Below are positions 55,265-64,000 of a stretch of DNA of 64,000 nt, in pieces (the first letter of the stretch is position 1; the number at the start of each line of letters is the position of its first letter). The stretch is from Desertivirga brevis (lineage in GTDB: Bacteria; Bacteroidota; Bacteroidia; Sphingobacteriales; Sphingobacteriaceae): NCBI RefSeq assembly GCF_017355835.1, contig NZ_JAFEWF010000002.1, positions 434,001 to 498,000 of the forward strand. The letters are read 5' to 3'. Below the pieces are notes generated by a model. That model worked only from the letters and a program-made list of their open reading frames with translations, was not told the DNA's origin and searched no databases. The translations under genes were made by a program, and so were the position numbers.

Positions 55265-55927
55265 ATGATCTTACCTTCAACATTTGATTTTTTAGAAAAA
55301 TTAAAAGACAACAATAACCGGGACTGGTTTAAACAAAATAAGCATCTTTACGAGAATTCCCATAAAAATGTGCTTGAGTTCGGCTCAACGATTATCAAGT
55401 CCCTTTCTAAGATTGATCGTACGATTCCCGAACATCTCGACCCGAAAGATTGTGTTATGCGTATTTACAGGGACATAAGGTTTAGTAAAGATAAATCGCC
55501 CTATAAACTGAATTTTGGAATAGCATTATCTGCAAATGGTAAAAATTTTGATGGAGCTGGATATTACCTTCATATTGAACCGGGAAAATGTTTTGTGGGG
55601 GGAGGCGCCTGGCATCCTACGCCAGAGCTTCTGAAATCTATACGTCAGGAAATAGATTATAATGGTTCGCACTGGCATGAAATCATAGATTCAGATAGCT
55701 TCAAGAATACCTTCAACACTCTTAGTGTTGAAGATAAGCTTCAAACGGCTCCTAAAGGATATCCATCGGACCATCCGGATATTGAATATTTGAAGCTTAA
55801 AAGTTTCGTTGCTACCCGGGCTTTAGATGATAATGAGCTTGCAGCCCCTAACGCCATAGAAATTGTGACTGATTCTTTCGAAAAATTATATCCTCTAATT
55901 GTTTTTTTGAGAAACGCGAATGCTTAA
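55265..55927 (+). CDS. DUF2461 family protein
   Basis: This 220-residue cytosolic protein matches DUF2461: FLEKLKDNNNRDWFKQNKH (about 9-27), RIYRDIRFSKDKSPYKLNFG (about 67-86), GYYLHIEPGKCFVGGGAWHP, and LKSFVATRALDD. The family is common in Bacteroidota and Actinobacteria and has no assigned function. It is directly adjacent to DUF983 without a gap, so it may simply be carried along on the oxidase-assembly transcript. Confidence 0.88.
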   Translation: MILPSTFDFLEKLKDNNNRDWFKQNKHLYENSHKNVLEFGSTIIKSLSKIDRTIPEHLDPKDCVMRIYRDIRFSKDKSPYKLNFGIALSANGKNFDGAGYYLHIEPGKCFVGGGAWHPTPELLKSIRQEIDYNGSHWHEIIDSDSFKNTFNTLSVEDKLQTAPKGYPSDHPDIEYLKLKSFVATRALDDNELAAPNAIEIVTDSFEKLYPLIVFLRNANA

Positions 55928-57746: not shown

Positions 57747-59603
57747 TTAACCAATAGTATCACCTCTTAAGTTTCTGAAACGTTTCCGGGCTTCTGAGGC
57801 TAGTATACTGCCTGGAAAATCATTGATGATCTTCTGAAAACACTGTTTGGCCATTTCCTTGTCTTGTAGCTGGTTTTCGTATATATCTCCGAGCATGAAC
57901 CAAGCGTCGTCTGCCCAAAGATCATAGCTATAGTTTTGGGTAATGGATTGTAATTGAACGATAGCTTGTTGGAAGTCTTGTTGTTTAAGAAATATTTTAG
58001 CTTTAGTCATTAGAATATCGTCTTCCAACGAGTTGCCGGGATAAATCTTTTGAATGCTATCAAGAACAAGCAGCGCCTCTGAACCTTTATTTTTAAAAGT
58101 AAGGAGATCCGCATAAGCAAATTTCTTCAAAGCATTAGTGTCTATTTCGCTCGCAGTGTTTTCCTGGATTAGTAGGCTTAGATTTAAGGCATCATTAGCA
58201 ATGAGTTGCGATGTAGAGGTTTTCAACACATCAAGTTGAGCCTTCGCCCAATTAAACTCCCCTTGATAGTAAGAAAGCTTTGCACCTCTGAACTTAGCTT
58301 CCTGCCCGTTAGGTTCATTAGGAAACTCCTTTTCCACCTGTCCAAAGATTAGCGCCGCCTCCCAGGGTTCGTTATTTAAAATATAAATATCGCCAAGGTC
58401 AAGCTTAATCGCAGCGATGGAAGCAGGAGGAAGCCCAGGCACCTTAAGCGCGTTTTCGAGGAGTGTTTCAGCTTCGGAAAGCTTATGGAGATGAAATGCT
58501 TGTAAGTTGGCTAATTGTTTTACTGCGAAAACAGTATTATGAGTTCTTCCAAATTCATTGATAAGATCTTTATAGTCTTTTTCGAGCTGTAAAAGATTAT
58601 CCTTGGAAAATTTTCCATTAGTCAACAGTTGGTTCTTGCAATTCAATAGCTGTATTCTTGCTGGTATGTAGAACTGCTGCTCTTTGCCTTTTAACACTAA
58701 GTAATTTAGAGCTTCGACAGCGGGCTCATAAGCCTTATTAGCAATAAGGGTGGCGGCAAATTCGTATACTCTTTCACCGTCCTCCTTCTGACGCTTGTCA
58801 AGAGAGATAATTTGTTTAAGTGCCAAATTGTACTCTTTCTGCTGATAAAACAACCAGGCAAGGAGATCGGGAAATGCCAGGCTTTGCGGCTCTTTCTGAA
58901 TTTTTTTTAGCAGTGCTATTTTCAACTGATCATAATCCTCTGTAGTCTCAAGAACAGTTGCAAAAGCATTTTTGGCCTGATTAATAATGTTGGGCTGTAG
59001 TTCAGGAGAGCCTAAGAGATTTAAGTATTCCTGAATGAGCATTGGCTTATTTTTCTGGTAACGGTAGAGGGAAATAAGATCGTAAGAGAAAAGGCTTTCA
59101 TCTTTAAGTAGTTTTCGGCCTTGTAACAATGCTTTTGTAGCATAATCGTAGGCTGTAGCTCTATAAAAGGCGATAGAAACTTCACGAATGGCATGCTCGC
59201 TTGTTGGGAGGTTTTTGATGATATTGCCATACCACTCATTAGCTTTAGCCTGATGCCCCTGTTCCTGGAGGACCCGGCCATAATCTATTTTAAAGGAAGG
59301 GTTATCTGGAACATCTTTCAACATCTTTTTTACCACCTTCTCAGCATCATCATACCTTTTAATCTTAATCAGGGCGTTTAGATACTGGTCGTAGTATAGG
59401 GATGGATTTGGGGAACGGTTAAAAAGTTTTTCATAGATTATAGCAGCACGATCATATTCAGCGTTTTGATAATATTGTATAGCTAAGGCATCTTCAGAAT
59501 TGCGTTGGGCAGAAGCATGAAGAAATGCTAACACCAGTAATGTAATCATTACTGAAGGAGAAAATAGCAAGCTTTTTAAATCTAGGGATCTCAAAATTCT
59601 CAT
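57747..59603 (-). CDS. Tetratricopeptide-repeat protein, exported
   Basis: This 618-residue protein has an N-terminal signal-like helix (about 15-33, ending HASAQ) and many TPR-like helix pairs through its whole length, for example YYQNAEYDRAAIIYEKLF (about 44-61), KAKIFLKQQDFQQAIVQLQ, and WFMLGDIYENQLQDKEMAKQ near the C terminus. It should be a periplasmic or outer-membrane scaffold. The partner is unknown. It heads the run with DUF4286 and rfbC. Confidence 0.85.
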   Translation of the reverse strand: MRILRSLDLKSLLFSPSVMITLLVLAFLHASAQRNSEDALAIQYYQNAEYDRAAIIYEKLFNRSPNPSLYYDQYLNALIKIKRYDDAEKVVKKMLKDVPDNPSFKIDYGRVLQEQGHQAKANEWYGNIIKNLPTSEHAIREVSIAFYRATAYDYATKALLQGRKLLKDESLFSYDLISLYRYQKNKPMLIQEYLNLLGSPELQPNIINQAKNAFATVLETTEDYDQLKIALLKKIQKEPQSLAFPDLLAWLFYQQKEYNLALKQIISLDKRQKEDGERVYEFAATLIANKAYEPAVEALNYLVLKGKEQQFYIPARIQLLNCKNQLLTNGKFSKDNLLQLEKDYKDLINEFGRTHNTVFAVKQLANLQAFHLHKLSEAETLLENALKVPGLPPASIAAIKLDLGDIYILNNEPWEAALIFGQVEKEFPNEPNGQEAKFRGAKLSYYQGEFNWAKAQLDVLKTSTSQLIANDALNLSLLIQENTASEIDTNALKKFAYADLLTFKNKGSEALLVLDSIQKIYPGNSLEDDILMTKAKIFLKQQDFQQAIVQLQSITQNYSYDLWADDAWFMLGDIYENQLQDKEMAKQCFQKIINDFPGSILASEARKRFRNLRGDTIG

Positions 59604-59761: not shown

Positions 59762-61666
59762 ATGAGGGGAAATAATTTTATGCTGAGATATTTTGGTATC
59801 TGTTTGCTGATGTTGTTGTTAAGTGTATTCGTGTGTTGCAAGCAGGAGAAGGAAGCCCGTAAAATTCCCCTTGAAGATTTTTTCAGAAATCCTGAGAAAA
59901 CGAATTTTCAACTTTCTCCTGATGGTAAACAATATGCCTTTCTTAAGCCCTACAGGAACAGACTAAATATTTTTGTTCAGGACCTTGATGGGAGCAATGT
60001 TAAACAGGTTACGCGATTAACCAGTAGGAATATCGGTTTTTATTGTTGGGCAAATAATAAATCCTTACTCTTCTCTCCGGATAGCAGGTCTGGCGCGTTT
60101 TTATATTCAGTAGACAAGGAAGGGAAAGCTGTAAAGGAGTTGTTTGCGGATGAGAAATTAAACATAAAGTTAATTAACTGGAAGAATATCACTAATAATG
60201 AGCTCGTGCTGGGACTTAATAAACGGGATTCAACCGTTTTTGACGCATATAAATTGAATTTGACGTCGGGGGCCTTAAAGCTTGTAGAGGAAAATCCTGG
60301 TAATATATTCCAATGGTTCACCGACGGAGAAGGAGATATTCGTATGGCACTGGCGAGTGATGGGGTTAATGAAACATTACTTTTCAGAGAAAATGCCAGC
60401 TTGCCATTCAGGCCGGTTGTTACCAATAATTTTAAGACAAAACTTAAGCCGGTAGCCTTTTGTGACAATGATCGCACTTGTATTTACGCTATTTCTAATA
60501 TAAAAAGAGATAAATCGGCCCTGGTACAGTTTGACTGTTCGCTTGGGAAGGAGACCAGGGAGTTGTACAGTCATGACGATGTCGATATAAGCGACGCGGA
60601 GTACTCTTATAAAAAAAGGAAATTGATTTCTGTAGGCTTTGAAACCTGGAAAAGAGAGAGATATTATCTCGATAGTGCGGCTAGTAAAGTATACAAGACC
60701 CTTCAAAAGCTTTTGCCTAATACCGAGGTAGTAATTGCAGATCAAAATATAACCGGTTCGATAAATATTATTCGGACTTTTACGGATAGGACCCAGGGGG
60801 CTTATTATTTATATAGGCCTGCGGCTAAGCAGCTAGGCAAAATAGCAGAAATAAATCCTTTGATTAAAGCAGAGGAAATGTGCCAGATGCAGGCGATTTC
60901 TTTTAGGAACAGGGAGGGGTCTGTTATAAAAGGATATCTTACTCTTCCTTTGAATAAAGATCCTGTAAATCTTCCCGTGATTGTAATTCCTCATGGCGGC
61001 CCAACTGATCGCAATTCCTGGGGGTATAGTTCTGAAGTACAATTTCTTGCCAATCGTGGATTTGCAGTTTTTCAACTTAATTTTCGTGGCTCGGGTGGTT
61101 ATGGAAAGCAGTTTTGGATTTCAGGTTTTAAAAAGTGGGGAACGATTGTACAGGATGATATCAGTGATGGAGTAAGATGGTTGATAAAGGAGGGAATTGC
61201 TGATTCAAAGCGAATTGGGATATATGGTGCAGGTTTTGGTGGGTTCAGCGCTTTAAGTGGATTGTCAAAACATCCGGAACTTTATGCTTGTGGCGCATCA
61301 CAATCAGGGTATATAAACTTGTTCACCTATCTTAAAGCTGTGCCTCCTTATTATAAACCTACTCTTCAAATGTATTACGAGATGGTCGGCAATCCTGAGA
61401 CCGACATAGATTATTTGAGAGATGCGTCTCCGGTTTTTCATGCTGATAAAATAAAGGCACCAGTGTTCATCGCACAGGATGCTAAAGACCCAAGGGTAAA
61501 GGTGAACGAAACAAATCAGTTTGTTAAAGAGCTGCGTAAAAGAAATATACCTGTGACCTATATTGTTAAGGAAACAGAAAAATATACTCTTCGTAACCCA
61601 GAAAATCGCTACGAGTATTACACCAAGCTTGAGAAGTTTTTTGAGAAGTACCTTTCTAATAAGTAA
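59762..61666 (+). CDS. S9 (prolyl oligopeptidase) family protein lacking catalytic Ser and His
   Basis: The 634-residue protein has an exported, possibly lipid-anchored N terminus (LLMLLLSVFVCC, residues 15-26; the lipobox is non-canonical), a beta-propeller (about 40-360) and an alpha/beta-hydrolase domain (about 375-634). The oxyanion HGGP (411-414) and Asp576 (AKDPRV) are kept. The nucleophile motif normally GxSxGG reads YGAGFGGF, with Gly491 in place of Ser (codon 61232-61234). The position of the catalytic His (usually HGF) is Tyr608 (KYTL). It is thus likely a pseudo-peptidase. A histidine kinase starts 6 bases after its stop. Confidence 0.9.
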   Translation: MRGNNFMLRYFGICLLMLLLSVFVCCKQEKEARKIPLEDFFRNPEKTNFQLSPDGKQYAFLKPYRNRLNIFVQDLDGSNVKQVTRLTSRNIGFYCWANNKSLLFSPDSRSGAFLYSVDKEGKAVKELFADEKLNIKLINWKNITNNELVLGLNKRDSTVFDAYKLNLTSGALKLVEENPGNIFQWFTDGEGDIRMALASDGVNETLLFRENASLPFRPVVTNNFKTKLKPVAFCDNDRTCIYAISNIKRDKSALVQFDCSLGKETRELYSHDDVDISDAEYSYKKRKLISVGFETWKRERYYLDSAASKVYKTLQKLLPNTEVVIADQNITGSINIIRTFTDRTQGAYYLYRPAAKQLGKIAEINPLIKAEEMCQMQAISFRNREGSVIKGYLTLPLNKDPVNLPVIVIPHGGPTDRNSWGYSSEVQFLANRGFAVFQLNFRGSGGYGKQFWISGFKKWGTIVQDDISDGVRWLIKEGIADSKRIGIYGAGFGGFSALSGLSKHPELYACGASQSGYINLFTYLKAVPPYYKPTLQMYYEMVGNPETDIDYLRDASPVFHADKIKAPVFIAQDAKDPRVKVNETNQFVKELRKRNIPVTYIVKETEKYTLRNPENRYEYYTKLEKFFEKYLSNK

Positions 61667-61672
61667 AAGGAT

Positions 61673-63346
61673 ATGATTATCAGGAAGTTCTCGGGAAAAA
61701 AGAACTTTGTTCTAAATATTGTATTTCTGATCTTAATAGCTGCCTCGTTAGTAGCAGCATTAACTATTGCCTATAATTTTACGTCAAGGTACGTGTATGA
61801 CGAATTTGAGAGAAAGAAAACAGAAGTTGTAGATGAAACTATAAAACCCTATAATGACTTTTTTCAAAATAGGATACCTGAGATTTCATTGTATCAGGGT
61901 TATCTCGATGCGTCTTCCGCCTACAAATTTTCAAAGACTATTCTTGACCAATTTCCTTTTGTTAGTCGTATTATCTTTTACGATACAGAAGTAAGTAATC
62001 ACAAAACGAAGTACGCATTCCGTGTAAATAATCTAACGATTGCACCAAAGGCTATTGCGCAGTATTACCGAAAGCAGCCGGAAGACTCGGTAGTTTTATA
62101 TACTAAGGCTTCAGGATTAAGACCTGTAAAGTATATAAACGAATTTAACCGCGTGTCAGTTAAGTTGGCTGCATTTCTGCAAAGTTTTGAGTTGAATAGA
62201 AGTACCTTATCAGATGAATCCTTAGGGACATTTTATAATGTAACAAACAATCGTGTTACTTTTATGAATATTCCCCGTGAGGAGGAGATTAAGGCTTTCA
62301 AGCAACTCATGGAAGATGAGGGTAGCAGATCACCGGTTTACCAGCAGGATGTTCTGTCTTTTCTACTAGATCCTGGAAAAATAAGGATAAAGAATATTCA
62401 TCCTCATCTTTACGAGGGAATAACCATAATACCTCTCACATCTGATATTATAGAGGTTGAACCAGAGCAGGTTTCTACGGAATTTCCGCTAACAGGAGCC
62501 TTTAGTAGCTATAAGCTTCATTTTGTTTCTTCATCGGATTTTCTCTCAGACGAAATAGTGCGGCGATATTTTCCTCTTGCTTTAGCCATTTTGATGGTTT
62601 ACGGTATTCTAATAGCAATAGGCTTCCTTATTTATCGCAATTTGAATATTAACAATAAGCTCTTCAAACTTCAATATGACTTCGTAAATAATTTAACACA
62701 TGAATTTAAAACACCAGTGAGTGTTATCAAGATAGCGGGGAACAATATTAGAAGAGCTAGTCAACTTAGCGAAAGAGAAAGATTACATTACGGGAAGATC
62801 CTTGATGAGGAGGCAGATAAATTGAACGATTTGATGAATAAACTTCTGTCTTTCACCCAGATTGAAAACCAGGTTATAAAGGTGAAACGTGAGAATATTA
62901 ATCTTGAAGTGTTTGTACAAAACATCGTTGATACGTATAATTTAAAGTATAACGACTTCCAAATATCGTATACCATTCGTAATGTGGATCACTTTTATAC
63001 TGACCCAGTTCTACTCGGAAGTCTTTTTCAAAATTTGATGGACAATGCGTATAAATACTCTCTTCGCGGTAAAAAGGAACTAGATATTGATATAGCCCAC
63101 GAAAAAACAGATATTGTTTTCAAGTTTACAGATAAAGGTATCGGTATTCCGAAAGAGGAAATGAAGAATATTTTCCAGAAGTTTTACCGTATTCAAAGCG
63201 AGTATAATCAACACGGAAGCGTAGGCTTAGGATTAGCATTTTGTAAGGAACTTGTTAATTTTATGGAAGGTAATATTACAGTAAGAAGTAAAGTGGGGCA
63301 AGGCTCTGAATTTACTATTACGCTTCCTTATAATTATATCCTGTAG
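61673..63346 (+). CDS. Sensor histidine kinase
   Basis: This 557-residue kinase has one N-terminal helix (about 12-34), a periplasmic sensor domain of about 260 residues (36-298) with no family I recognise, a second helix (about 300-321), then HisKA with the phospho-acceptor His343 (LTHEFKTP) and a HATPase domain: N box Asn458 (NLMDNAYKYS), G1 DKGIGIP (487-493), F box FQKFYRI and G2 GSVGLGLAFCK. There is no HAMP domain between helix and HisKA. It lies between the S9 pseudo-peptidase and an OmpR-type regulator. Confidence 0.95.
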   Translation: MIIRKFSGKKNFVLNIVFLILIAASLVAALTIAYNFTSRYVYDEFERKKTEVVDETIKPYNDFFQNRIPEISLYQGYLDASSAYKFSKTILDQFPFVSRIIFYDTEVSNHKTKYAFRVNNLTIAPKAIAQYYRKQPEDSVVLYTKASGLRPVKYINEFNRVSVKLAAFLQSFELNRSTLSDESLGTFYNVTNNRVTFMNIPREEEIKAFKQLMEDEGSRSPVYQQDVLSFLLDPGKIRIKNIHPHLYEGITIIPLTSDIIEVEPEQVSTEFPLTGAFSSYKLHFVSSSDFLSDEIVRRYFPLALAILMVYGILIAIGFLIYRNLNINNKLFKLQYDFVNNLTHEFKTPVSVIKIAGNNIRRASQLSERERLHYGKILDEEADKLNDLMNKLLSFTQIENQVIKVKRENINLEVFVQNIVDTYNLKYNDFQISYTIRNVDHFYTDPVLLGSLFQNLMDNAYKYSLRGKKELDIDIAHEKTDIVFKFTDKGIGIPKEEMKNIFQKFYRIQSEYNQHGSVGLGLAFCKELVNFMEGNITVRSKVGQGSEFTITLPYNYIL

Positions 63347-63384
63347 ATTTTTATTAACCATTTATAGAAAGAGATTAATATTAG

Positions 63385-64000
63385 ATGAAAAAGGAAGTTA
63401 AAATAGGAATAGTAGAAGATGATGATAATCTGCGTTTTTTGGTAGCACATAGATTGGAATCAGAGGGTTTTACAGTAGTAGAGGCCACCGATGGCGACGA
63501 AGGCGAACAGTTGATCTTGAATGAAAGGCCTGATATTGTCCTGTTGGATTGGATGCTACCAGGAAAGCAAGGCAATGAAGTGTGTAAGGACGTTAGGTCG
63601 AAGGGTTTTGAAAATGTGATTATAATGATGACAGCGAAAGCTCAGGATGTTGACAAAATTGATGCATACAGTGCCGGAGTTACAGATTATGTTACTAAGC
63701 CTTTTAATATGGATGTGCTAATTGCCTTAATTGAAAATAAAGTAAAATTTGTTATCCTTAATGAGAAAACTGAGGCTTACAAGTTTTCTAATATGGAGCA
63801 TTTCCCTAACACTCATTCTCTTGTAAAAGATGGTAGGAAGATAGAACTCACAATTTTGGAGAATAGAATTTTGTTGTATTTTCTTAAAAATCAGAATAAG
63901 GTTATTCACCGAGATGAATTAATGATGGTTGTTTGGGGCTATAATTCGGATGTAAATACCCGAACTTTAGATATGCACATTGTCAGACTGAGAAAGAAAA
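63385..64000 (+). CDS. OmpR/PhoB-family response regulator (3' end outside window)
   Basis: The gene starts at ATG 63385, 38 bases after the kinase stop, and runs off the right edge after 205 codons. The receiver domain has the acidic pair Asp12/Asp13 (VEDDD), phospho-acceptor Asp55 (LLDWMLPG), Thr83 and Lys105 (TKPFN). A winged-helix DNA-binding domain follows (about 145-205), with LTILENRILLYFLKNQNKV and VNTRTLDMHIVRLRKK. It is the cognate partner of the adjacent kinase; target genes are not visible. Confidence 0.95.
   Translation, partial: MKKEVKIGIVEDDDNLRFLVAHRLESEGFTVVEATDGDEGEQLILNERPDIVLLDWMLPGKQGNEVCKDVRSKGFENVIIMMTAKAQDVDKIDAYSAGVTDYVTKPFNMDVLIALIENKVKFVILNEKTEAYKFSNMEHFPNTHSLVKDGRKIELTILENRILLYFLKNQNKVIHRDELMMVVWGYNSDVNTRTLDMHIVRLRKK

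Follow-up and report, generated by a model that had tools for sequence, protein, structure and literature searches.

The window, by which is meant the whole 64,000-nucleotide stretch of Desertivirga brevis DNA that was analysed, closes with three forward-strand genes for a degenerate S9-family peptidase, a sensor histidine kinase, and a response regulator, with the following features in window coordinates:

59762..61666, + strand: S9-family pseudo-peptidase of 634 aa resembling acylaminoacyl peptidases, beta-propeller plus alpha/beta-hydrolase, lipoprotein-like N-terminus
59837..59839, + strand: Cys26 (codon TGC), homology-based lipidation site with Cys at position -1, where A, S, or G is usual
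61232..61234, + strand: Gly491 (codon GGT) replacing the nucleophile Ser; GAGFGG as compared with GxSxGG
61487..61489, + strand: Asp576 (codon GAC), the triad Asp, kept
61583..61585, + strand: Tyr608 (codon TAT) replacing the triad His; all intact relatives have His in this column
61673..63346, + strand: sensor histidine kinase, 557 aa, starting 6 bases past the S9 stop codon
61778..62566, + strand: periplasmic sensor of the kinase, residues about 36-298, predicted double-CACHE-like fold
63385..64000, + strand: OmpR/PhoB-type response regulator, 205 aa, after which the window edge cuts the frame

Reading of the window bore out what an earlier note on this DNA had given for the locus: the coordinates, the spacings of 6 bases between the first two genes and 38 bases between kinase and regulator, and the cut end of the regulator, whose full-length ortholog in another locus (L001) has 228 aa. 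In Pfam, the first gene product matches Peptidase_S9 (1.8e-40), the kinase HATPase_c and HisKA, and the regulator Response_reg and Trans_reg_C. The pair has the make-up of an orthodox OmpR-type two-component system, with a HisKA/HATPase kinase, a receiver/winged-helix regulator, and both His343 and Asp55 present. The phospho-acceptor His343 (codon CAT) is found in 188 of 188 aligned kinases, and Asp55 of the regulator (codon GAT) is presumably the phospho-acceptor, from its position in the family. The nearest named relative found was Desertivirga arenae, also of the Sphingobacteriaceae (S9 protein 87%, kinase 88%, regulator 95% over the part in the window).

The first gene product matches the S9 fold over its full length, with both the beta-propeller and the alpha/beta-hydrolase, and is nearest in fold to acylaminoacyl peptidases (5l8s; MEROPS label S9C). 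It differs from those enzymes in the absence of the nucleophile and the histidine, in its lipoprotein-like N-terminus, and in its fixed operon with a kinase. Because the codons at the three catalytic positions read GGT, TAT, and GAC, the nucleophile Ser and the catalytic His of an active S9 enzyme are gone and the Asp is kept. The earlier description of this protein as dead therefore appears to be correct, as judged from its triad (Gly491 and Tyr608). The N-terminus is cut in 53 of 184 loci (L015-L037 and L167-L196), so that the N-terminal counts rest on the remaining loci, from which two N-termini gapped in the Cys column were set aside. In all 129 N-termini with a residue in the lipobox column, that residue is Cys, and A, S, or G precedes it in 122; in the window copy it is preceded by Cys. 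With this membrane-anchor signature in its relatives, the S9 protein is lipoprotein-like and would be expected to face the periplasm.

The periplasmic part of the kinase, taken here as about residues 30-298, is predicted from structural matches to fold like double-CACHE domains. This is the large periplasmic domain that the earlier note had called unassigned. Several of the structural matches are, by their titles, domains solved with amino acids (Mlp24, Mlp37, Tlp3, and PctA), and a double-CACHE-like sensor could itself bind a small ligand.

A kinase match at 1e-55 was present in 246 of the 251 genomes of the family draw; each of these has a single match apart from G029, whose kinase gene is divided between two contigs. 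From these 246 kinase-positive genomes, 57 of which were left out, 189 distinct loci were assembled (109 + 80); an outside relative that has no kinase (L007) and seven loci that repeat genomes (L008-L014) stand outside the counts. The S9 gene lies directly upstream of the kinase gene, on the same strand, in 184 of the 189 Sphingobacteriaceae loci examined. The gap between the two has a median of 6 bases (5-95% range, -1 to 24) and is largest in L199, which is frameshifted, and L081 (186 bases); in L060, an S9 frame of 630 aa ends just before the kinase. The recurrence of this order in 184 of 189 loci places the S9-kinase pairing beyond chance, and an accident of one genome is ruled out as the source of the linkage. 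The genes on either side recur less often than the S9-kinase pairing: a divergent gene for a TPR protein was recognised in this position in 79 of the 127 loci whose flank is long enough, and a UbiA-like gene was recognised in 42 of 139, counts from which diverged copies could be missing. In the window, the TPR protein gene (57747-59603) is divergent from the S9 gene, and its product reaches no NCBIfam cut-off. It is important to note that gene order alone is no proof of joint function.

On this sampling, the unit appears to be specific to the family. At 1e-6, a profile of the sensor matched ten of the 295 class-draw genomes, every one of which is in the family draw as well. Among 60 genomes of the class that are not in the family draw, nine had an S9 match at 1e-40, and these nine S9 relatives have the nucleophile Ser in nine of nine cases and a triad-like His in seven. 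A kinase or regulator gene was seen near none of the nine in flanks of about 1.5 kb at most, some contigs being shorter, in a search that found its positive control. Regulator matches outside the family at 1e-35 occurred in 21 of 60 genomes and were relatives of only 31-38% identity.

The state of the S9 triad varies within the unit. Among 184 readable copies (183 loci and the window), 144 are broken and 40 keep Ser, Asp, and His, the last by a score that overcounts because it accepts His in any of three neighbouring columns. The nucleophile position is occupied by Gly in 132 copies, Ser in 43 (three without the His), Arg in five, Asn in two, and Glu in two. Of the broken copies, 98% retain the triad Asp; conservation has been lost at their His column, where the commonest residue is Arg at 25%. 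As a control, other S9-type loci from eight family genomes were examined (30 of the 59 matches listed, mostly high-scoring), and the nucleophile was Ser in 26 of 26. The linkage of S9 gene and kinase that the earlier note had proposed to survey in other genomes is thus found throughout the family, and most of the linked S9 copies are broken.

Intact and broken states are scattered over the kinase tree. On a tree of 190 kinases, which contains no S9 residues and which, like all trees used here, is quick, midpoint-rooted, and without bootstrap, at least 13 changes between intact and broken are required, and starred branches force 11 of these; when regain is disallowed, the number of loss clades is 16. 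These changes probably ran from intact to broken, because the nine outside relatives keep Ser and a regain of both Ser and His is unlikely. In three loci (L051, L053, and L175), all in a 60-row clade that is mostly Gly, the nucleophile is Ser though the His is gone; either the Ser was kept after loss of the His, or Gly changed back to Ser in a dead protein.

Constraint on the S9 protein is similar in broken and intact copies. Among close pairs with dS under 2, which were 26 of 49 pairs, the median dN/dS of the S9 gene was 0.047 in broken pairs (18 pairs, maximum 0.252) and 0.057 in intact pairs (8 pairs, maximum 0.075), and that of the kinase gene in the same pairs was 0.038 and 0.060, respectively. 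Some broken pairs lie above the intact maximum, at 0.142, 0.149, and 0.252. There are 115 columns between residues 150 and 631 that are at least 95% conserved in intact copies, and the broken copies hold the same residue at 90% in 80 of these and at 75% in 97. S9 frames reach at least 600 aa in 126 of the 130 copies with a visible upstream stop codon, and these long frames, together with the low dN/dS, rule out pseudogene decay for most copies. Low dN/dS, long frames, and kept columns therefore indicate that the broken S9 protein is maintained, presumably not for its classical reaction. In L199 and L205, which belong to triad-broken lineages, the S9 frame is broken by frameshifts, for which decay and assembly error are both possible.

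Taken together, the gene linkage, the membrane-anchor signature, the maintained sequence, and the dispensability of catalysis speak for an S9 protein that faces the periplasm and partners the kinase without acting as an enzyme. The best explanation, held here with moderate confidence, is that the S9 protein serves the double-CACHE-like kinase as a periplasmic partner for which catalysis has repeatedly proved dispensable; the repeated catalytic loss in a well-preserved protein suggests a role for the sensor rather than as an enzyme. The three genes would then encode a family-wide, three-component sensory unit made up of an S9-fold lipoprotein, a double-CACHE-like kinase, and an OmpR-type regulator. 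The S9 protein probably entered the unit as an active peptidase. Its retention there would not have depended on cutting, and its catalytic residues would have been lost many times, with fold and sequence remaining under selection. Most likely, the hydrolase pocket or the propeller would hold a peptide, an acylated amino acid, or a periplasmic protein, and the state of the S9 protein would set the activity of the kinase.

A dead S9 partner had been proposed in the earlier note, and this proposal stands in part: broken copies under purifying selection do lie beside the kinase, but deadness is frequent and recurrent rather than required. Active-looking S9 proteins in the same position, which had been named as a finding that would refute the proposal, do occur, namely the 40 of 184 copies that keep Ser, Asp, and His, and these copies show that a dead S9 protein is no requirement of the unit. 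In a more detailed version of the partner model, which is offered tentatively, the S9 protein would capture a peptide or acyl-amino acid and report its occupancy to the double-CACHE kinase, which would make the unit a bacterial counterpart to DPP10 and its Kv4 channels in animals. The pseudoenzyme would have been made a dozen or so times in parallel, and the triad-intact copies would represent a living ancestral state that both senses and cuts. Capture of such ligands is possible, as a guess that the fold makes natural.

The S9 protein could instead be a co-transcribed target rather than a part of the sensor, a reading that we regard as rather doubtful. It would be an envelope protein, once a peptidase, that now does something other than catalysis, for instance binds peptides or cell-wall fragments or protects another enzyme, and that is controlled by the kinase and regulator. 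The operon structure alone fits such a target, purifying selection requires only some function, and one clade retains the kinase and regulator in the absence of S9. The five loci concerned (L226, L235, L236, L238, and L239) come from genomes of 1.7-2.0 Mb and form a single clade with top support on the kinase tree. In the four with enough flank, the S9 gene is absent from its position, because the kinase gene adjoins a divergent gene resembling the TPR neighbour. Within this clade, 8 of 25 conserved sensor columns are changed in all five kinases, as compared with 5 of 91 in the kinase part, and the same column test in 24 partly nested control clades gave 0-6 changed sensor columns. Changes in the sensor after loss of S9 are thus suggestive, weakened by two sister rows that still have S9 and share 4 of the 8 changes.

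Co-evolution of the S9 protein and the sensor, which is not clearly beyond its control, also leaves room for a target. A mirror-tree comparison of propeller and sensor gave a partial r of 0.447 before control, and in the controlled comparison (73 loci) the values were 0.15 for the propeller, 0.23 for the hydrolase, and 0.16 for the divergent TPR neighbour. The mirror-tree argument was rejected on this control, and none of the comparisons made gave a direct sign of S9-kinase contact. What speaks against a mere target is that this S9 type occurs mostly in the unit. At 1e-40, the S9 profile had a match in every one of the 60 family genomes searched and only a single match in 51, and unsplit copies from the operon score 1e-200 and better. 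The five kinase-less family genomes, which are small and perhaps incomplete, contain no S9 protein of the unit type (0 of 5; no match, or 1.5e-23 at best). This tie is tighter than a target needs. A second, lower-scoring S9 relative of about 285-537 bits lies away from the unit in nine of the 60 genomes (G004, G019, G069, G103, G148, G153, G161, G188, and G212).

It is unlikely that the unit works in two modes, in which triad-intact S9 proteins would cut peptides to yield an amino acid or dipeptide as the ligand of the sensor, and broken ones would only bind, or the sensor would rely on free ligand. The amino acids in several structural matches of the sensor, Mlp24 to PctA, and the apparently whole triad of the 40 intact copies are consistent with this idea. 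However, the 13 or more changes of state came with no matching change in operon order or median dN/dS, which suggests that a cleavage product is not generally needed. That the broken S9 protein is not dead at all, with another residue as nucleophile or a different reaction, is very improbable: the fold, most conserved columns, and the triad Asp in 98% of broken copies do persist, but at the nucleophile position four different residues stand in for Ser (132 of 184 copies have Gly) and the broken copies no longer conserve the His column, whereas new residues should have become fixed if a new mechanism had arisen.

The non-catalytic partner favoured here has parallels in known systems. MtrAB-LpqB differs from the S9 unit in phylum and gene order, and the partner in the S9 unit is a complete S9 protein, unlike that in MtrAB-LpqB. 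As a mode of action, this actinobacterial system is the nearest: the accessory lipoprotein LpqB likewise shares an operon with a two-component system and modulates the kinase MtrB (PMC5487470). In Pseudomonas, the periplasmic protein AatJ is encoded beside the AauS-AauR two-component system and is needed for its full response, and in the authors' proposal AatJ, together with its ligand, may be what AauS recognises (PMC7386598). AatJ is described there as the solute-binding protein of an ABC transporter, in contrast to the S9 protein of the unit. No description of an S9-kinase-regulator unit was recognised in searches of open-licence literature.

For the fate of the fold, the nearest parallel comes from animals. 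DPP10 is an S9-fold protein rendered inactive by a Ser-to-Gly replacement (GKGYGG), membrane-anchored, and a modulator of Kv4 channels, and in DPP6 the nucleophile Ser is replaced by Asp (PMC4350108). These inactive S9B proteins share with the S9 protein of the unit the S9 fold and a replaced nucleophile, and they are membrane-anchored modulators of another membrane protein. They differ from it in being type II membrane proteins of animals with Kv4 channels as their targets, whereas the window protein is nearest in fold to acylaminoacyl peptidases, and DPP10 keeps the triad His that the window protein has lost (PMC4350108). By analogy, DPP10 may serve as a precedent for the fate of the S9 fold, from a Ser-to-Gly replacement to a modulator role. 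If the partner model is true, the unit would provide a natural series at one gene position (intact, half-broken, fully dead, and deleted) for the passage from enzyme to signalling part. It would also give access to a two-component system that has a match in 246 of the 251 genomes of its family.

Among the matches listed, the two-component system reaches no curated NCBIfam cut-off. The regulator of L001 scores 186.8 bits as compared with 300 for MtrA, and the window kinase 102.3 as compared with 450 for MtrB. RprX/RprY of Bacteroides is a two-component pair from the same phylum as the S9 unit; orthology to it was rejected on the score of the L001 regulator, at 129.6 bits versus the RprY cut-off of 370, and the S9 unit contrasts with it in a sensor whose profile gave no match at 1e-6 in class-draw genomes from other families. 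Farther upstream in the window, the gene at 55265-55927 encodes a TIGR02453 family protein, with 232.2 bits versus a cut-off of 105.4.
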